From Acidobacteriota bacterium (GTDB taxonomy: Bacteria; Acidobacteriota; Blastocatellia; UBA7656), in the NCBI GenBank assembly GCA_016201275.1, contig JACQDB010000082.1:62001-126000 (forward strand): a stretch of 64,000 bases of DNA, read 5' to 3'. The first letter of the stretch is position 1. Each line of letters begins with the position of its first letter. A program made the position numbers and the translations under genes. Under the pieces are notes generated by a model that saw only the letters and a list, made by a program, of their open reading frames with translations, was not told where the DNA came from and searched no databases. This document shows positions 12,726 through 58,276 of the stretch, piece by piece.

Positions 12726-12935
12726 GGTTAGGCAATATAGCATAAGCGTCTGACGTTGACAGGTTGGCGCGAAACAGGTTTTGATGAAGCTGTCAAAAAG
12801 GAGTAGAAAAAGTTGCAGATGCGCTTTATCAAAGTTTGCGCCGCAGAATTTCGCGCCGCGTGTTTTTCTCTTTCGCCAAAGCTTCATCAATCGGCTATCC
12901 AAGAAATGAAATCACCAGAGCGCCGACCACCTGAA

Positions 12936-12999
12936 GGTACGAGCAACCCTTGGTGGTTGCCGCTTGACCAAGTGGCGACCACCAAGGGTCGCTCGTACC
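12936..12999. repeat. Palindromic element within the modA leader
   Basis: Two 25-nt arms (12936-12960 and 12975-12999) match in 23 of 25 positions as an inverted repeat around a 14-nt loop. The sequence is related to the palindrome at the heart of the MITE-like repeats at 22.9 kb and 58.2 kb: all share a GTAC..GCGACC type core. It lies in frame within the open reading frame upstream of the modA signal peptide. Confidence 0.8.
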
Positions 13000-13025
13000 A
13001 GCGATGGCAAACCGAGCGCAGGGCG

Positions 13026-13823
13026 GTGCGGCGGCGATTGAGTTTCGCCTTTTGCCTTTTGCCTTTTATCTTTTGTCTTTTGTCCTGTGCGACGCCTGAC
13101 GCCGCCAAGCGCCAGCCTGTGGCGGTCGCAATTACCGTAGCCGCGGCGGCGGATCTGGCGTCGGCCTTTACTGAACTCGGCAACTTGTTCGAGCAGCAGC
13201 AACATATCAAAGTCATCTTCAGTTTTGGCTCGACGGGAATGTTGGCCAAACAGATTGAGCAGGGTTTTCCCGCTGATGTCTTTGCCGCCGCCAATCTCGC
13301 TTTTGTGGATGACCTCGACAAACAGGGCTTGATTTTCTCCGACAGCAAAGCGCCTTATGCCACAGGCCGCATCACGCTCTGGCAGCGCGCCGATGCGCCG
13401 TTGCGCTTGAACCGGCTGGAAGATTTGATGCGGCCTGAAGTCAAACACATCGCCATCGCCAACCCCGAACACGCGCCTTATGGCATGGCGGCACGCCAGG
13501 CTTTGCAGTCGCTGAAGCTCTGGAATGCGCTGCAATCCAAATTGGTGATCGGCGAAAACGTGCGCCAGACTTTGCAATATGCCGAAACCGGCAACGCGGA
13601 TGTTGCCATCACGGCGCTCTCTTTGAGCGTATCAAGCACAGGGCGCTGGACCTTGATTGCCGAGGATTTGCATAGACCGCTGGTGCAAGCACTGGCGGTC
13701 ATCAAAAGCACTTCGCATGAACAAGCGGCGCGACAATTTGCCGCGTTTATCAACAGTGAGCAAGGCCGCCCGATTATGAAAAAGTACGGCTTCCTGCTGC
13801 CCGGCGAAGAAGCCGCGAAATGA
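13026..13823 (+). CDS. modA: Molybdate ABC transporter substrate-binding lipoprotein (orphan)
   Basis: A periplasmic substrate-binding protein of the ModA family. From the GTG at 13026 it has 265 residues: RRR, a hydrophobic core, and a lipobox LLSC (Cys20) for lipid attachment. The mature part has the ModA hallmarks AAADLASAFTELGNLFEQ, FSFGSTGMLAKQIEQG, PADVFAAAN, and IANPEHAPYGMAARQAL. The open frame runs back to 12813, but that part contains a palindromic repeat and charged low-complexity residues, so I prefer a start next to the signal peptide; TTG at 13038 or ATG at 12906 are alternatives. The signal-peptide core is encoded by a tandem heptamer. No modB or modC is adjacent, so the permease must be elsewhere. 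Confidence 0.82.
   Translation: MRRRLSFAFCLLPFIFCLLSCATPDAAKRQPVAVAITVAAAADLASAFTELGNLFEQQQHIKVIFSFGSTGMLAKQIEQGFPADVFAAANLAFVDDLDKQGLIFSDSKAPYATGRITLWQRADAPLRLNRLEDLMRPEVKHIAIANPEHAPYGMAARQALQSLKLWNALQSKLVIGENVRQTLQYAETGNADVAITALSLSVSSTGRWTLIAEDLHRPLVQALAVIKSTSHEQAARQFAAFINSEQGRPIMKKYGFLLPGEEAAK
13043..13085 (+). repeat. Tandem heptamer array (ttttgcc type) inside modA
   Basis: Five to six copies of a 7-nt unit (ttttgcc, drifting to ttttatc and ttttgtc). Because 7 is not a multiple of 3, successive copies are read in different frames and give FCLLPFIFCLLS, the hydrophobic core of the lipoprotein signal peptide. Confidence 0.75.
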
Positions 13824-31734: not shown

Positions 31735-31812
31735 TGTAGGGGCGCACGGCGGTGCGCCCAGATTCTGAAAAACATTGTGAAAATTCTGGGCGCACGGCGG
31801 TGCGCCCCTACG
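31735..31812. repeat. Composite palindrome at the end of addA
   Basis: Two copies of a hairpin (gtaggggcgcacggcggtgcgccc) in inverted orientation flank a 29-nt AT-rich middle. Each arm is itself a palindrome, and the outer arms pair with each other. The right end supplies the TAG stop codon of the addA-like frame. It lies 14 nt after the stop of the MFS gene, between convergent genes. It is probably an inserted repetitive element and may also act as a transcription barrier. Confidence 0.8.
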
Positions 31813-34636
31813 TTGACAATCTGCGGAGCAGAGGAAAAGCGCGAAATATATCGGCGCGGAAATCCGCTGCATCCATTGGCGAAAGGTCTTCAACCTGGCG
31901 CTCTGCTGTCACGCGCTCCCTCGCATCCTCAAACGCCTGGGCCTCGTGCCAATATACATCAACCTTGCTGCCGCCATACTCGACTTGATTCGGGCGCGAC
32001 TCTTCATCAAAGCCAAGCGCACGGGCAAGGCGTCCGAGCCAGTGTTCGCCCGTTAATTTCGCTCGTCCGAGCGAACCGGAAATCATCAAGTGATCACGCG
32101 CTCGCGTCGCCGCTACATAAAGCAGGCGTTTCTTTTCCGCCTTGTCCATTTGCGCTTCGAGCCGTCGAAGCAAATCGAAAGCCGCAGAGCGCGGCGTCTC
32201 TTTTCGCCTGTCGAAATCATCGGCGCGCACGTCCAGCGCGATGCCGAAATCGCTGTGCATAGCGAGGAGCGATTTGCCGGTGTTGCCGCCGTAGGTCGCA
32301 TCCACAATCCAGACGATGGGAAATTCCAGTCCCTTCGATTTATGCACCGTCATCAAACGCACCGCGCCCGCTTCTTCTATAGTGGCTTCGCCTTCGCGGA
32401 TTTCCCGAAAGCGCAAATCCTGTATGCGTTCGACCACTTCGGCCAGCGTCAAGGTCGCAAGCTGATGCGTCTGCTCAATCAACTTTTCGACATTGGCAAC
32501 GCGCCGTTCGCCATTGGGCAAAGCCATCAAAGTGGCCAGGTAGCCGGTCTCTCTGACCGCCGTTGTCAACAACTGCGCGGCGCTCACCCGTCCGACCAGA
32601 GTTCGCAAATGTGTGAGCGTCGCTCGGGCAAATTCTACGGCGGCAAGCTGGTCTGGCGCGACCGTGATAGAGTCATCGCCCAGGGCTGTCCACAAATGAG
32701 CAATCGGCTCAAGGCGCAAACGCAACAGCGTCTCATCCGACCAAGCGAACATCGGCGAACGCAACACCGAAGCGAGGCTGAGGTTATCAATCGGGCTGGC
32801 CAAAAAAGCGAGCAGGTTGCTGATGTCTGTGATCTCCTGCCTTGCGTAAAAACCTCTGCCAGCGATGGTGACATAGGGAATTTCGGCGTCGGCGAGCGCC
32901 TGTTCGTAAATATCGAAATGGGTCGAGGCTTGAAACAAGAGCGCGAAATCGCCGTAAGCAGCGCGGCGCGGCGCGTTGCGTTCATCGCCTACCAAGACCT
33001 CGCCTTGATGAATAATCTCGTTGATGCGGCGCGCCATCAGCCGTGCTTCGAGGTCGCGCAACTGCATGGCGTTCAGTTTTTCCGGCGCTTCTGTGGCGCT
33101 CGCCTCGTCCGCTTCGGCGTTTGGGTTTTGCGCGATGATGTGCAATTCAACCGACGCTTGTTCGTGCAAGGCGGCGCGGTTGGCCAGCATCTTTTCATAA
33201 GGCGTGTCGTAGCGGCTTTCCACAGTGAAGACTGCGGGAAAGAGGTGATTGACGAAACCAATCAAGCGCGAGTGCGTGCGAAAGCAGGTGTCCATGCCAA
33301 CAACGCAACCGCCGCTGCTTTCGACTTCGTGGCGGGCGTCTTGAAATACGGTCACGTCCGCGCCGCGAAAACGATAGATGGATTGTTTGGCGTCGCCAAT
33401 GATAAACAGTTCCTGGTTAGCCGGTGCAAGCTTCCACAGAATACTTTTTTGAATTGGCGAGGTGTCCTGAAATTCGTCAATCATCAAAGCGCGCAGGCGT
33501 TCGCCGCCTTGGTACAACTGGCAAACTTCGGGGTGCGCGGCAAGCATAGCTTCGGTGATTTCTTCGAGGTCGTTGAAATCCAGCACGGCGCGTGCGTTTT
33601 TCATCTGCTGAAATCGGGCGCGAGTCTTGTCATAGAGCCGCGCTAGGTACGCGACAACTTCAGCGGCTTGCGCGTCGGCCTCGTTCACTTCCAGTTCCAG
33701 CACTTTTTCATCACGAATAAATTGGCGCAGATTATTGAGAGCAATCTTCACGGCTTCAAACTCGTCTGCCGAAGCCCAGTTTCTTATCGAGCCGCCGCGC
33801 AGGTTGATGCAGTGGGCGATTTCGCGCAAGGCTTTGATTCGTTCGTCATCATCGCTGAAAGCGGCGACCTCTAAAAGTTCGACGACTTGCAGGCGGCACT
33901 GCTCGCGTTTGTCGTCGCTCTTGAGTGCCACAAGTGTGGTGATGGTGGCGACTTCGCTGTGCCAAGCGCTGCGTTCAAGCAATAAATTCGCGGCCTCTAT
34001 TTGATAGCTGGTGAGGGTGTTGCGCCAGAAAGTTAAAATCTCTGCGGCGTCTTGCGGCGTGGATTCTTCACGAAGAAAGCGCGACAGCGCACGGCGACCG
34101 CTTTCGCCTTGCGCGATCAAGGCGCGCAAAGTCGAACGAATTTGATGCGCCGTCAGGTACGAAAAAATTTCCAATTCCGGGGCTTGCAGACGCGCCGTTT
34201 CAACCAGCGTTTCTTCGATGGCGGTATCAAGTAAAACGGCGGCCTCGATCTCTTCGCTAACTTCAAATTCCGGGTCCAGCGCCGCTTCGGCGGGATGGGC
34301 GCGCAGCAGCGAAGCGCAGAGCGCGTGAATCGTGCCGATGCGCGAAGAGTCCAGCGCATTGCGATGTTCGCGCCAGCGGCGGCGCTCGTCCGGGTCAAGG
34401 CTTTGTTCAATGCGCGAGCGAATTTCGCGGCGTATGCGCGCCACCATTTCCCGCGCCGCTTTTTCGGTGAAGGTCACGGCGACAATATCAGCAACCTGCC
34501 AGTCAGGATTTTCTTCGAGCAGTTTCAAGAAGCGTTCGACCAGCACGCGGGTCTTGCCCGAACCCGCGCCCGCCGACACCAGTACGCGCCGTCCGCGTGT
34601 GTCAATCGCTTCGCGTTGTGCCGCTGTCCATTTCAT
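31808..34636 (-). CDS. UvrD/AddA-like helicase, C-terminally truncated
   Basis: A 942-residue superfamily 1 DNA helicase. Motif I is SAGAGSGKTRVLVERF (about 22-37), motif Ia VAVTFTEKAAREMVARIRRE, motif II LMIDEFQDTSPIQ, motif III GDAKQSIYRFRGAD, motif V VMTVHKSKGLEFPIVW region and motif VI RLLYVAATRARDHL. The order and the long middle 1B/2B region match AddA of bacterial recombination nucleases. AddA has a further 250-residue nuclease domain (PD-(D/E)XK) at the C-terminus. Here the frame ends at FPLLRRLST, just before the place where that domain should start, and the stop codon is part of a palindromic repeat at 31735-31812. No AddB is next to it. It may function as a helicase alone, or be inactivated for nuclease function. 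Confidence 0.9.
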   Translation of the reverse strand: MKWTAAQREAIDTRGRRVLVSAGAGSGKTRVLVERFLKLLEENPDWQVADIVAVTFTEKAAREMVARIRREIRSRIEQSLDPDERRRWREHRNALDSSRIGTIHALCASLLRAHPAEAALDPEFEVSEEIEAAVLLDTAIEETLVETARLQAPELEIFSYLTAHQIRSTLRALIAQGESGRRALSRFLREESTPQDAAEILTFWRNTLTSYQIEAANLLLERSAWHSEVATITTLVALKSDDKREQCRLQVVELLEVAAFSDDDERIKALREIAHCINLRGGSIRNWASADEFEAVKIALNNLRQFIRDEKVLELEVNEADAQAAEVVAYLARLYDKTRARFQQMKNARAVLDFNDLEEITEAMLAAHPEVCQLYQGGERLRALMIDEFQDTSPIQKSILWKLAPANQELFIIGDAKQSIYRFRGADVTVFQDARHEVESSGGCVVGMDTCFRTHSRLIGFVNHLFPAVFTVESRYDTPYEKMLANRAALHEQASVELHIIAQNPNAEADEASATEAPEKLNAMQLRDLEARLMARRINEIIHQGEVLVGDERNAPRRAAYGDFALLFQASTHFDIYEQALADAEIPYVTIAGRGFYARQEITDISNLLAFLASPIDNLSLASVLRSPMFAWSDETLLRLRLEPIAHLWTALGDDSITVAPDQLAAVEFARATLTHLRTLVGRVSAAQLLTTAVRETGYLATLMALPNGERRVANVEKLIEQTHQLATLTLAEVVERIQDLRFREIREGEATIEEAGAVRLMTVHKSKGLEFPIVWIVDATYGGNTGKSLLAMHSDFGIALDVRADDFDRRKETPRSAAFDLLRRLEAQMDKAEKKRLLYVAATRARDHLMISGSLGRAKLTGEHWLGRLARALGFDEESRPNQVEYGGSKVDVYWHEAQAFEDARERVTAERQVEDLSPMDAADFRADIFRAFPLLRRLST

Positions 34637-52196: not shown

Positions 52197-53240
52197 ATGG
52201 CAACCGAAGCCTGCGAGAGACGTTTTTTTCAATCTATGAATTCTCTTTCCGAAACCAATCCGACCAACAGTGCGCCGCGCACCATTGCCCAAGTCGTCAC
52301 GGAAGGCGCAAATTTCTTGCGCGAAAACCAAGTGAGCGATGAACGCCTCACCGCCTCATTACTGCTTGAGCAGGCGCTCGGCGTTGACCGCACGCAATTA
52401 ATCATCCGCGCCAATGAAGTCTTAGACGAAGCGCTGCGGCAAACTTTTCGAGCGCTGCTTGAGCGTCGCGCTGCGGGCGAGCCGTTGCAATACATTCTCG
52501 GTCATCAGGAATTTTACGGTCTCGATTTTCGCGTCACGAAGGCGGTGTTAATCCCGCGACCGGAGACCGAATTTTTAATCGAACAAGTCCTCAAGCTATC
52601 GCAGACACCAGCGGAGCTTGATTGTACAGAACCGTTTCGTCGTACCGCCAACAAGCGCAAGAGGGCGAAGAACACACTGCCGTCTGTTGGCGATACGACG
52701 AAACTTTCCGCACCCGCATGGCTCATCGTGGACATCGGCACAGGCTCCGGTTGCATAGCCATCACCTTGGCGCGGCATCTCAAAACGGCGCGCCTCATTG
52801 CCACAGATAGTTCCAGCGCCGCGCTCGCGATTGCCCAGGAGAATGCCGCACGACTGGGCGCACAAGAGCGCATCGAATTTCTGCACGGCGATTTGCTTGC
52901 GCCGCTTGCGGGGCGCGGTCTCGAAAACCGTATTGATTTTCTGGTCTCGAATCCACCTTATGTTGCGCGGCAAGAGGCAGCGACTTTGCAACGCGAAGTG
53001 ATCAACTGGGAACCGCACGCGGCGCTGTTTGCGGACGAGGACGGCTTGCAGTTTTATCGCCGCTTGCTTGCTGAAAGTCACGGCTATGTGAAGCCGGAAG
53101 GTTTTTTGATTTGCGAAATCGGTTATACTCAACTCGACGCAATCCGACAGATGATAGACCCAAACTTATGGCGACTCGAAGACGTGACCAACGACTTGCA
53201 AGGCATCCCGCGCATTCTCACCATGCGCCGCATCGCTTAA
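52197..53240 (+). CDS. prmC: Release factor glutamine N5-methyltransferase, with an inserted palindromic segment
   Basis: A 347-residue methyltransferase (about 280-290 in the family) that modifies the Gln of the GGQ motif in release factors. The N-terminal helical domain (LLEQALGVDRTQLIIR, GEPLQYILGHQEFYGLDF, IPRPETEFLIE) is followed by the SAM motif VDIGTGSGCIAITLA and the catalytic NPPY in VSNPPYVARQEA. Between them, residues about 146-170 are encoded by a palindromic repeat (52634-52704), which adds a basic linker just before motif I. The start is ATG at 52197 or 52236. The frame ends TAATG with the next gene, indicating coupling. Confidence 0.93.
   Translation: MATEACERRFFQSMNSLSETNPTNSAPRTIAQVVTEGANFLRENQVSDERLTASLLLEQALGVDRTQLIIRANEVLDEALRQTFRALLERRAAGEPLQYILGHQEFYGLDFRVTKAVLIPRPETEFLIEQVLKLSQTPAELDCTEPFRRTANKRKRAKNTLPSVGDTTKLSAPAWLIVDIGTGSGCIAITLARHLKTARLIATDSSSAALAIAQENAARLGAQERIEFLHGDLLAPLAGRGLENRIDFLVSNPPYVARQEAATLQREVINWEPHAALFADEDGLQFYRRLLAESHGYVKPEGFLICEIGYTQLDAIRQMIDPNLWRLEDVTNDLQGIPRILTMRRIA
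52634..52704. repeat. Palindromic element inserted in frame in prmC
   Basis: Arms 52634-52653 and 52685-52704 (gtttcgtcgtaccgccaaca and its complement with one mismatch) enclose a 31-nt loop. The element is read through in frame and encodes about 25 extra residues between the N-terminal and SAM-binding domains of PrmC. Confidence 0.85.
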
Positions 53241-55141: not shown

Positions 55142-55543
55142 AAATCCTCCGCGAAATGAAACGATGAAGTATGCACTTTGAATTGAAGCGGCATGGATGA
55201 TGCTATGCCGTATGAGGTGGTGTCAATCCGAGGCAGCCACAATCCCAGGCCTGCAATCAGGTTGCCGATTTAATGCGGGTAATGAATGCTCTCGGACTTG
55301 GCGAAGCTTGGCGGCTTGGCGGCTTGGCGCGAGAACCTAAGGTTGCGACCCCAACAACGGAGCGTGCGCCAAGCCGCCAAGCCGCCAAGCTGTCGCGTTC
55401 CCCCTCGCATCATTGGTGAACAATGACATACTGCCGATAAATTCTACGCCAAACTTGACGCCTTCTTTGCCTGCACGTTATAAGTTAGCCGAGCCGCTGA
55501 CCACGCTTCCGAAAACATCCCATAAGCAAAGGAAAATTGCACT
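55142..55543. other. Divergent intergenic region with a large stem-loop
   Basis: About 400 bases between the Tat TIM-barrel gene and the next sugar isomerase. It contains the octamer-based inverted repeat at 55306-55390. Divergent promoters must lie here, but I see no convincing boxes. Confidence 0.5.
55306..55390. repeat. Perfect 25-nt inverted repeat built of octamers
   Basis: Arm one (55306-55330) is gcttggcg in three tandem units; arm two (55366-55390) is its perfect complement. The loop has 35 nt. It can form a strong stem in either strand. Confidence 0.85.
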
Positions 55544-57938: not shown

Positions 57939-58165
57939 TGATGAAAGAGTATGTGGTTATTTATGAGCAGGGAAAAGCGGGAGAGGAGAATTGGGGCGCG
58001 TATGTGCCTGACCTTCCAGGATGTATTTCGACGGGCGAGACCTTGGAGGAAGCACAACACAACATCCGCGAAGCGATTCACCTTCACCTCGAAGGCTTGA
58101 AAGCCGAAGGACTACCGATTCCTGAGCCAACCACTCAAGTTGATAAGGTTTCTATCGCTGCTTAG
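57938..58165 (+). CDS. hicB: HicB-family antitoxin
   Basis: A 75-residue antitoxin of the HicB family with a degraded-RNase-H fold: EYVVIYEQGKAGEENWGAYVP, DLPGCISTGETLEEAQHNI, and REAIHLHLEGLKAEGLPIPEP. No helix-turn-helix C-terminal domain follows, so this is the short form. It starts at the ATG overlapping the hicA stop. Its own TAG stop codon is part of the left end of the MITE-like element at 58160. Confidence 0.92.
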   Translation: MMKEYVVIYEQGKAGEENWGAYVPDLPGCISTGETLEEAQHNIREAIHLHLEGLKAEGLPIPEPTTQVDKVSIAA

Positions 58166-58276
58166 GATTGTGGATGAAATAAAGTGTAGCCTTGTAGGAG
58201 CAACCACAGAGGGTTGCCCCTACAAGGCCTTGGAAAATCACTCAAGTGTTGCACTTTATTTCATCCGTCATCCTTA
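58160..58276. mobile_element. MITE-like palindromic element, copy 2
   Basis: A 117-nt element homologous to 22918-23035. Terminal inverted repeats: left gcttaggattgtggatgaaa, right catccgtcatccttaa; both copies continue into aataaagtg. The centre is a palindrome of the type ttgtaggagcaacc / ggttgcccctacaag, followed by ggaaaatcactcaag. Its left end gives hicB its TAG stop codon. No coding capacity. Confidence 0.78.

Follow-up and report, generated by a model that had tools for sequence, protein, structure and literature searches.

The closest known counterparts of the element described here are the GTAG-type REP dimers (REPINs) and their RAYT transposases, with REPs found inside genes of Opitutus terrae among them (PMC3733652, PMC3116915, PMC6006769). 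GTAG and CGTC palindromic repeats form head-to-head dimers, can be nested within outer palindromes and have in-frame intragenic copies, which are most numerous in O. terrae and Rickettsia conorii (PMC3733652). Intragenic REPs outside Rickettsia were known before this work, GTMG is a permitted degenerate foot, GGAG is unlisted, and Acidobacteriota are not among the phyla given for GTAG repeats (PMC3733652). The Rickettsia palindromic elements RPE-4 and RPE-6 are CGTC repeats, for which no linkage to a transposase has been reported (PMC3733652). Repeats of the CGTC superfamily are recognized by a CGTC tag, an 8–9 bp stem starting with AT, a CCA tail and the lack of transposase linkage. Among the transposases, TnpA_REP subclass 2.8 has an HYH motif and a proline-rich N-terminus, and was confined to Cyanobacteria in the sample studied (PMC6006769). 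Here we analysed a palindrome within the prmC gene of an Acidobacteriota bacterium (Blastocatellia, assembly GCA_016201275.1), located in a stretch of 64,000 nt of contig JACQDB010000082.1 that we refer to as the window.

A palindrome read through in prmC

The prmC gene, encoding the release factor N5-glutamine methyltransferase (52197..53240, plus strand), was an intact ORF of 347 aa whose reading frame was open throughout, palindrome included. The product scored 267.9 bits against the NCBIfam model RF_mod_PrmC (cut-off 199.1) and matched Pfam PrmC_N at residues 32–102. Since this was the only full-length prmC match in the genome, PrmC is probably functional with its insert.

An earlier note on this DNA had reported 20-nt arms pairing with one mismatch around a 31-nt loop at 52634..52704. 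This was reproduced: the left arm (GTTTCGTCGTACCGCCAACA; 52634..52653, plus strand) and the right arm (GTTTCGTCGTATCGCCAACA; 52685..52704, minus strand), the latter located with arm and inverted-repeat searches, were 95% complementary with 31 nt between them. Two arm-like sites (≤3 mismatches) were found in the window versus 0.09 expected. Folded as DNA, the palindrome had a z-score of −4.1 and no shuffled sequence folded as well. The repeat is thus not due to chance. The reading of the 71-nt element as an in-frame stretch of about 25 residues held as far as the open frame is concerned. Its length of 71 nt is, however, not in frame by itself, so that some other base change at the site must have restored the frame, and the number of residues is closer to 24 (approximately residues 146–170 of PrmC). 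The first arm was read as FRRTAN and the second as PSVGDTTK.

The linker was measured from the PETE motif to SAM motif I in an alignment with 64 other PrmCs, 28 from other Blastocatellia and 36 more. It was 53 residues long, versus 17–23 residues in the 64 homologues, in line with the short family linker that had been claimed. The element was absent from the PrmCs of relatives, as predicted, and an equally long linker was not found among them. The palindrome accounts for about 24 of the approximately 31–34 residues in excess of the usual length, with insert boundaries that are approximate because the PrmCs compared belong to relatives outside the genus. The linker of G002, whose PrmC is the nearest at 57% identity, was 36 residues long. 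The prmC of G002 (L025) carried different DNA at the same linker, a CATCACG tandem repeat read as RITHHASL; as this DNA differs from the palindrome, the linker seems to tolerate inserts.

The AlphaFold2 model of PrmC (22 sequences) had a mean pLDDT of 88.8; residues 1–4 and 142–168 were the only ones to fall below 50. The insert is predicted to form a disordered loop joining two well-folded domains, which agrees with the exposed loop that the earlier note expected at residues 146–170. Given this location, the 24 encoded residues are probably neutral for PrmC, and the insert behaves like an RPE.

A dispersed family of 72-nt dimers

Copies were gathered by model search with two covariance models, R1 and R2, the latter built from a second subfamily. 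A genome search for the arm had been proposed as a check and yielded 23 sites, mostly true relatives; L005, L014, L017 and L020 were rejected as chance arm matches. With R1 at least 64 sites were found in the genome and with R2 at least 17 more, giving at least 81 sites in two subfamilies, with in-frame copies in genes among them; each search scored 150 candidates. Of 38 other Blastocatellia genomes, 14 also had R1 matches. A plasmid search and a search with a long degenerate pattern gave no match. The R1 model scored the prmC copy at 74.4 bits, the copy itself being part of its training set. R2, trained without the prmC copy, gave 37.0 bits (E = 3.5e-7 in a search of the window), an independent confirmation that the prmC copy belongs to the family.

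Full-length copies were 72 nt long, and the palindrome took up all or nearly all of them. They consisted of two inverted REP units of the type 5'-GTTTC-GTAG-T-CCCGCCT(TC)AGGCGG-AAGC, and the 72-nt consensus had an inner CCGCCTNNAGGCGG within each arm. Paired cells amounted to 85.7%, versus 34–47% when the partners were slid. In 13 cells both sides had changed and still paired, versus 5.2 in shuffles. The 71-nt extent with short arms is thus a property of the prmC copy and not of the family: this copy is best read as a head-to-head REP dimer whose 20-nt arms remain and whose inner part has decayed.

Subfamily a was characterized by GTTTCGTAG/GTCG-TCCCGCC... with the feet GTAG, GTCG and GTTG, subfamily b by AGTTTGGAG/GGCG-TTCCGCC... 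with the feet GGAG and GGCG. The foot of the left prmC arm was GTCG, a GTMG variant of GTAG, at a position where aligned siblings had GTAG, GTCG or GTTG; that it is GTCG rather than GTAG counts against reading the element as a REPIN. A third kind of centre, CCAATGGCATGAAG, was seen in other copies of the genome. Some copies were 36-nt 'double-foot' versions (e.g. L011, L135 and L138), as expected of 72-nt dimers that have lost the centre between their two inner palindromes.

Of 88 copies, 20 had an outer palindrome (TAGTGGCTCAA...) on both sides of the core, and 40 had it on one side or both. Such nesting goes beyond the simple REPIN model and counts against it. The prmC copy lacked the outer palindrome. 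About nine further extra linker residues lay immediately upstream of the prmC palindrome in the PrmC alignment (52607..52633, plus strand); this segment did not match the outer palindrome (six mismatches on each side) and may be either what erosion has left of the element's outer part or linker growth unrelated to it.

A RAYT gene flanked by the dimers in sister genomes

In G004, which belongs to the same family as the genome studied here, a Y1 transposase gene (L206:1678–2277) matched NCBIfam REP_Tyr_transpos (REP-associated tyrosine transposase). Dimers with exact subfamily a arms, including an exact GTTTCGTAGTCCCGCC and with the foot GTAG, lay on both sides of this gene. Full-length homologues of the G004 RAYT with 49–68% identity were found in G003, G006, G012, G013, G016, G019, G024 and G031. 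R2 dimers flanked the RAYT of this clade on both sides in G003, G004, G006 and G019, whereas in G024 only one side had a dimer. Inspection of other RAYTs of the clade showed related palindromes alongside. Their feet included GTTCAGAG and, adjoining a G013 RAYT gene, the subfamily b-like GTTTGGAG. The HuH motif was NHYH in 10 of 11 clade-hit loci. Of the nine genomes that have a RAYT of the clade, eight carried the repeat, versus seven of the 30 that have none (Fisher p = 0.0008, uncorrected for phylogeny).

Linkage to the repeat was limited to the Y1 clade that the G004 RAYT protein retrieved. R1 matched none of the 30 best Y1 transposase loci from eight relatives, and none of the eight Y1 loci of the genome studied here contained the CCGCCTNNAGGCGG core. 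None of these eight was close to the clade, and the six with a recognizable motif read HVH, HTH or HLH. A search of this genome with the G004 RAYT protein found no clade RAYT in an assembly that is 98.7% complete, so that a missed gene is possible. In view of the missing clade RAYT, the copies of this genome look like relics and probably derive from past activity. The RAYT gene carried one in-frame stop in G019 (L243) and in G031 (L246), both still rich in copies, and these stops suggest that the mobilizer is still being lost.

In-frame copies in other genes

Most copies in the genome studied here were extragenic, and the only Pfam-backed genes spanned were prmC and one GT87 glycosyltransferase gene (L107), in which the Pfam domain spans the in-frame insert. 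Further in-frame copies, drawn from the sampled copies with Pfam support required, were found in other genomes. In G004, one lay in a NarG-like molybdopterin oxidoreductase (L214; molybdopterin Pfam domain spanning the insert) and in G019 one lay in a Type ISP restriction-methylase (L237; Type_ISP_C domain spanning the insert). G015 had four, in ThiL (L223; AIRS_C domain spanning the insert), an RND pump (L221), an FtsX-type permease (L226) and an APH-M23-aminotransferase fusion (L219), the last three with Pfam support. As judged from ORFs and domain matches, prmC, GT87, ThiL, NarG, the Type ISP enzyme and others retain an open frame, and their domains extend across the insert or lie next to it. 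ORFs over copies at L123, L129 and L184 (no Pfam match), and at L143 and other sites, were discarded as spurious or antisense. An insert in GatB (L233) was left uncounted, as it may precede the true start.

The ThiL insert was common to G015 and G031, two species of one genus, and absent in five other genomes. A copy shared by two species indicates that such inserts can be kept and are not merely tolerated transiently.

The 72-nt unit equals exactly 24 codons, and one frame gives a similar Pro/Gly-rich peptide from either strand; this peptide, FVVPPSGG...PPEGGTTN, was the usual one of the in-gene copies. When 72-nt copies were read from their strands, this frame was open in 66 of 90 readings, versus about 36 expected from composition. 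A far-reaching interpretation would be that a RAYT system in Blastocatellia evolved REPINs as protein-compatible inserts that persist across species; with a unit of 24 codons and a frame open above expectation, the copies would then repeatedly lengthen the loops of housekeeping proteins. We regard this as unlikely.

Origin of the prmC insert

Very probably, the prmC element is a REPIN that was inserted by a RAYT and kept in a flexible linker. Two inverted REP hairpins joined head to head would form the 72-nt REPIN, and a RAYT (TnpA_REP) would have inserted it into prmC by working on the hairpin in single-stranded form. We propose that the insertion was retained because the linker is flexible and its frame stayed open, and that this lineage subsequently lost the RAYT, leaving relic copies. 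The missing clade RAYT in the genome studied here and the frame correction that a 71-nt insert needs count against this reading. The observations behind this reading were computed: the family, its anatomy and spread, the flanking of RAYTs in sister genomes, the absence of the element from the PrmCs of relatives and the other in-frame copies.

An RPE-type or CGTC-type palindromic repeat that has no dedicated transposase and reached the same in-frame behaviour by convergence is very unlikely. The REPtron-like loci of G004, G003, G006 and G019 already disfavour it. No CGTC repeat was seen to flank a transposase (PMC3733652). The string CGTC does lie within both arms of the prmC copy (TTTCGTCGTA), but GTAG and GTCG alternate at this one tag column among the siblings, and the RAYT-adjacent dimers have GTAG in G004 and AGAG or GGAG elsewhere in the clade. 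What speaks for such a repeat is the genome's own lack of a cognate RAYT, together with an in-gene behaviour that is that of RPEs (PMC3733652). The likeness to Rickettsia palindromic elements drawn in the earlier note is sound for the in-frame insertion in genes; in its anatomy the family is of the GTAG REPIN type, with dimers flanking RAYTs in the sister genomes.

Very unlikely, too, is a MITE that a DD(E/D) insertion sequence moves in trans, with GTTTCGTCGT as its terminal inverted repeat or with the outer TAGTGGCTCAA repeat as its end. The outer repeat resembles a MITE end in the copies that have it on one or both sides, and the length of the element is MITE-like. The arms, however, are palindromic in themselves (CCGCCTTCAGGCGG) and have a GTAG foot, the copies flank RAYTs, and REP dimers inside outer palindromes are known from Anabaena variabilis and H. 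neapolitanus (PMC3733652). A non-mobile origin, either by lineage-specific expansion of the linker or as an RNA hairpin regulating prmC translation, is extremely unlikely despite the stability of the palindrome as RNA (−36.7 kcal/mol, z-score −5.4, no shuffled sequence folding as well), since the same sequence is dispersed over dozens of unrelated sites, the hairpin is mid-gene, away from the prmC start, and an Rfam search gave no family at threshold.

Other palindromes in the window

The window contained further palindromes. At 31736–31811, an inverted pair of GTAG-tagged hairpins (GTAGGGGCGCACGGCGGTGCGCCC...) of a different REP-dimer family overlapped the start of an AddA/UvrD-like helicase ORF (31808–34636, minus strand). 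A near-perfect 64-nt palindrome at 12936–12999 (GGTACGAGCAACCC...GGGTCGCTCGTACC) lay within the 5' end of a ModA-like ORF (12813–13823) and resembled the hairpin beside a Y1 transposase of contig C80 (L125:2954–3035). At 58164–58274, an outer palindrome (AGGATTGTGGATGAAATAAAGTG) surrounded a different hairpin; similar outer palindromes enclosed GTTCAGAGTTACGCC dimers at L131, L191 and L195. A perfect 26-nt inverted repeat with GGCTTGGC units, 35 nt apart, was present at 55305–55391.

Comparison with known systems

No description of this family was found in the papers searched, and the family appears to be undescribed; its kind, REPINs with a RAYT that are sometimes intragenic, is already known. 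Of the features of the CGTC superfamily, the prmC copy contains the CGTC string, but GTAG alternates with it in the tag column, and linkage to a RAYT was found. As in RPE-1, RPE-4 and RPE-6 (PMC3733652), the in-gene copies are palindromic, lie in frame in unrelated housekeeping genes and encode a peptide of 20–30 residues; unlike RPEs, with which it was compared by description, the family is linked to RAYTs and occurs in Blastocatellia, not Rickettsiales. The RAYTs of the clade share with TnpA_REP subclass 2.8 the HYH motif (here NHYH) and flanking long GTAG-like REPs, and some members of that subclass carry REP insertions. The assignment to this subclass is tentative and by motif, and the hosts are Blastocatellia, not Cyanobacteria.

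The family is most similar to the GTAG REPINs, with which it shares the GTAG-like foot, inverted palindromic pairs, dispersed copies, dimers on both sides of the RAYT, 36-nt single hairpins of the 'double-foot' kind, outer nesting and occasional in-frame copies of 20–30 aa. It differs from them in its host, Blastocatellia, in a degenerate foot (GTMG, GGMG) and in that the genome studied here has copies without a cognate RAYT. RAYT-linked REPINs that land in frame within genes are hereby extended to Acidobacteriota. The genomes form a natural series in which the cognate RAYT is intact (G003, G004, G006), interrupted by a stop (G019, G031) or missing (the genome studied here), and which is suited to testing how long REPIN populations and their in-gene copies outlive the transposase.
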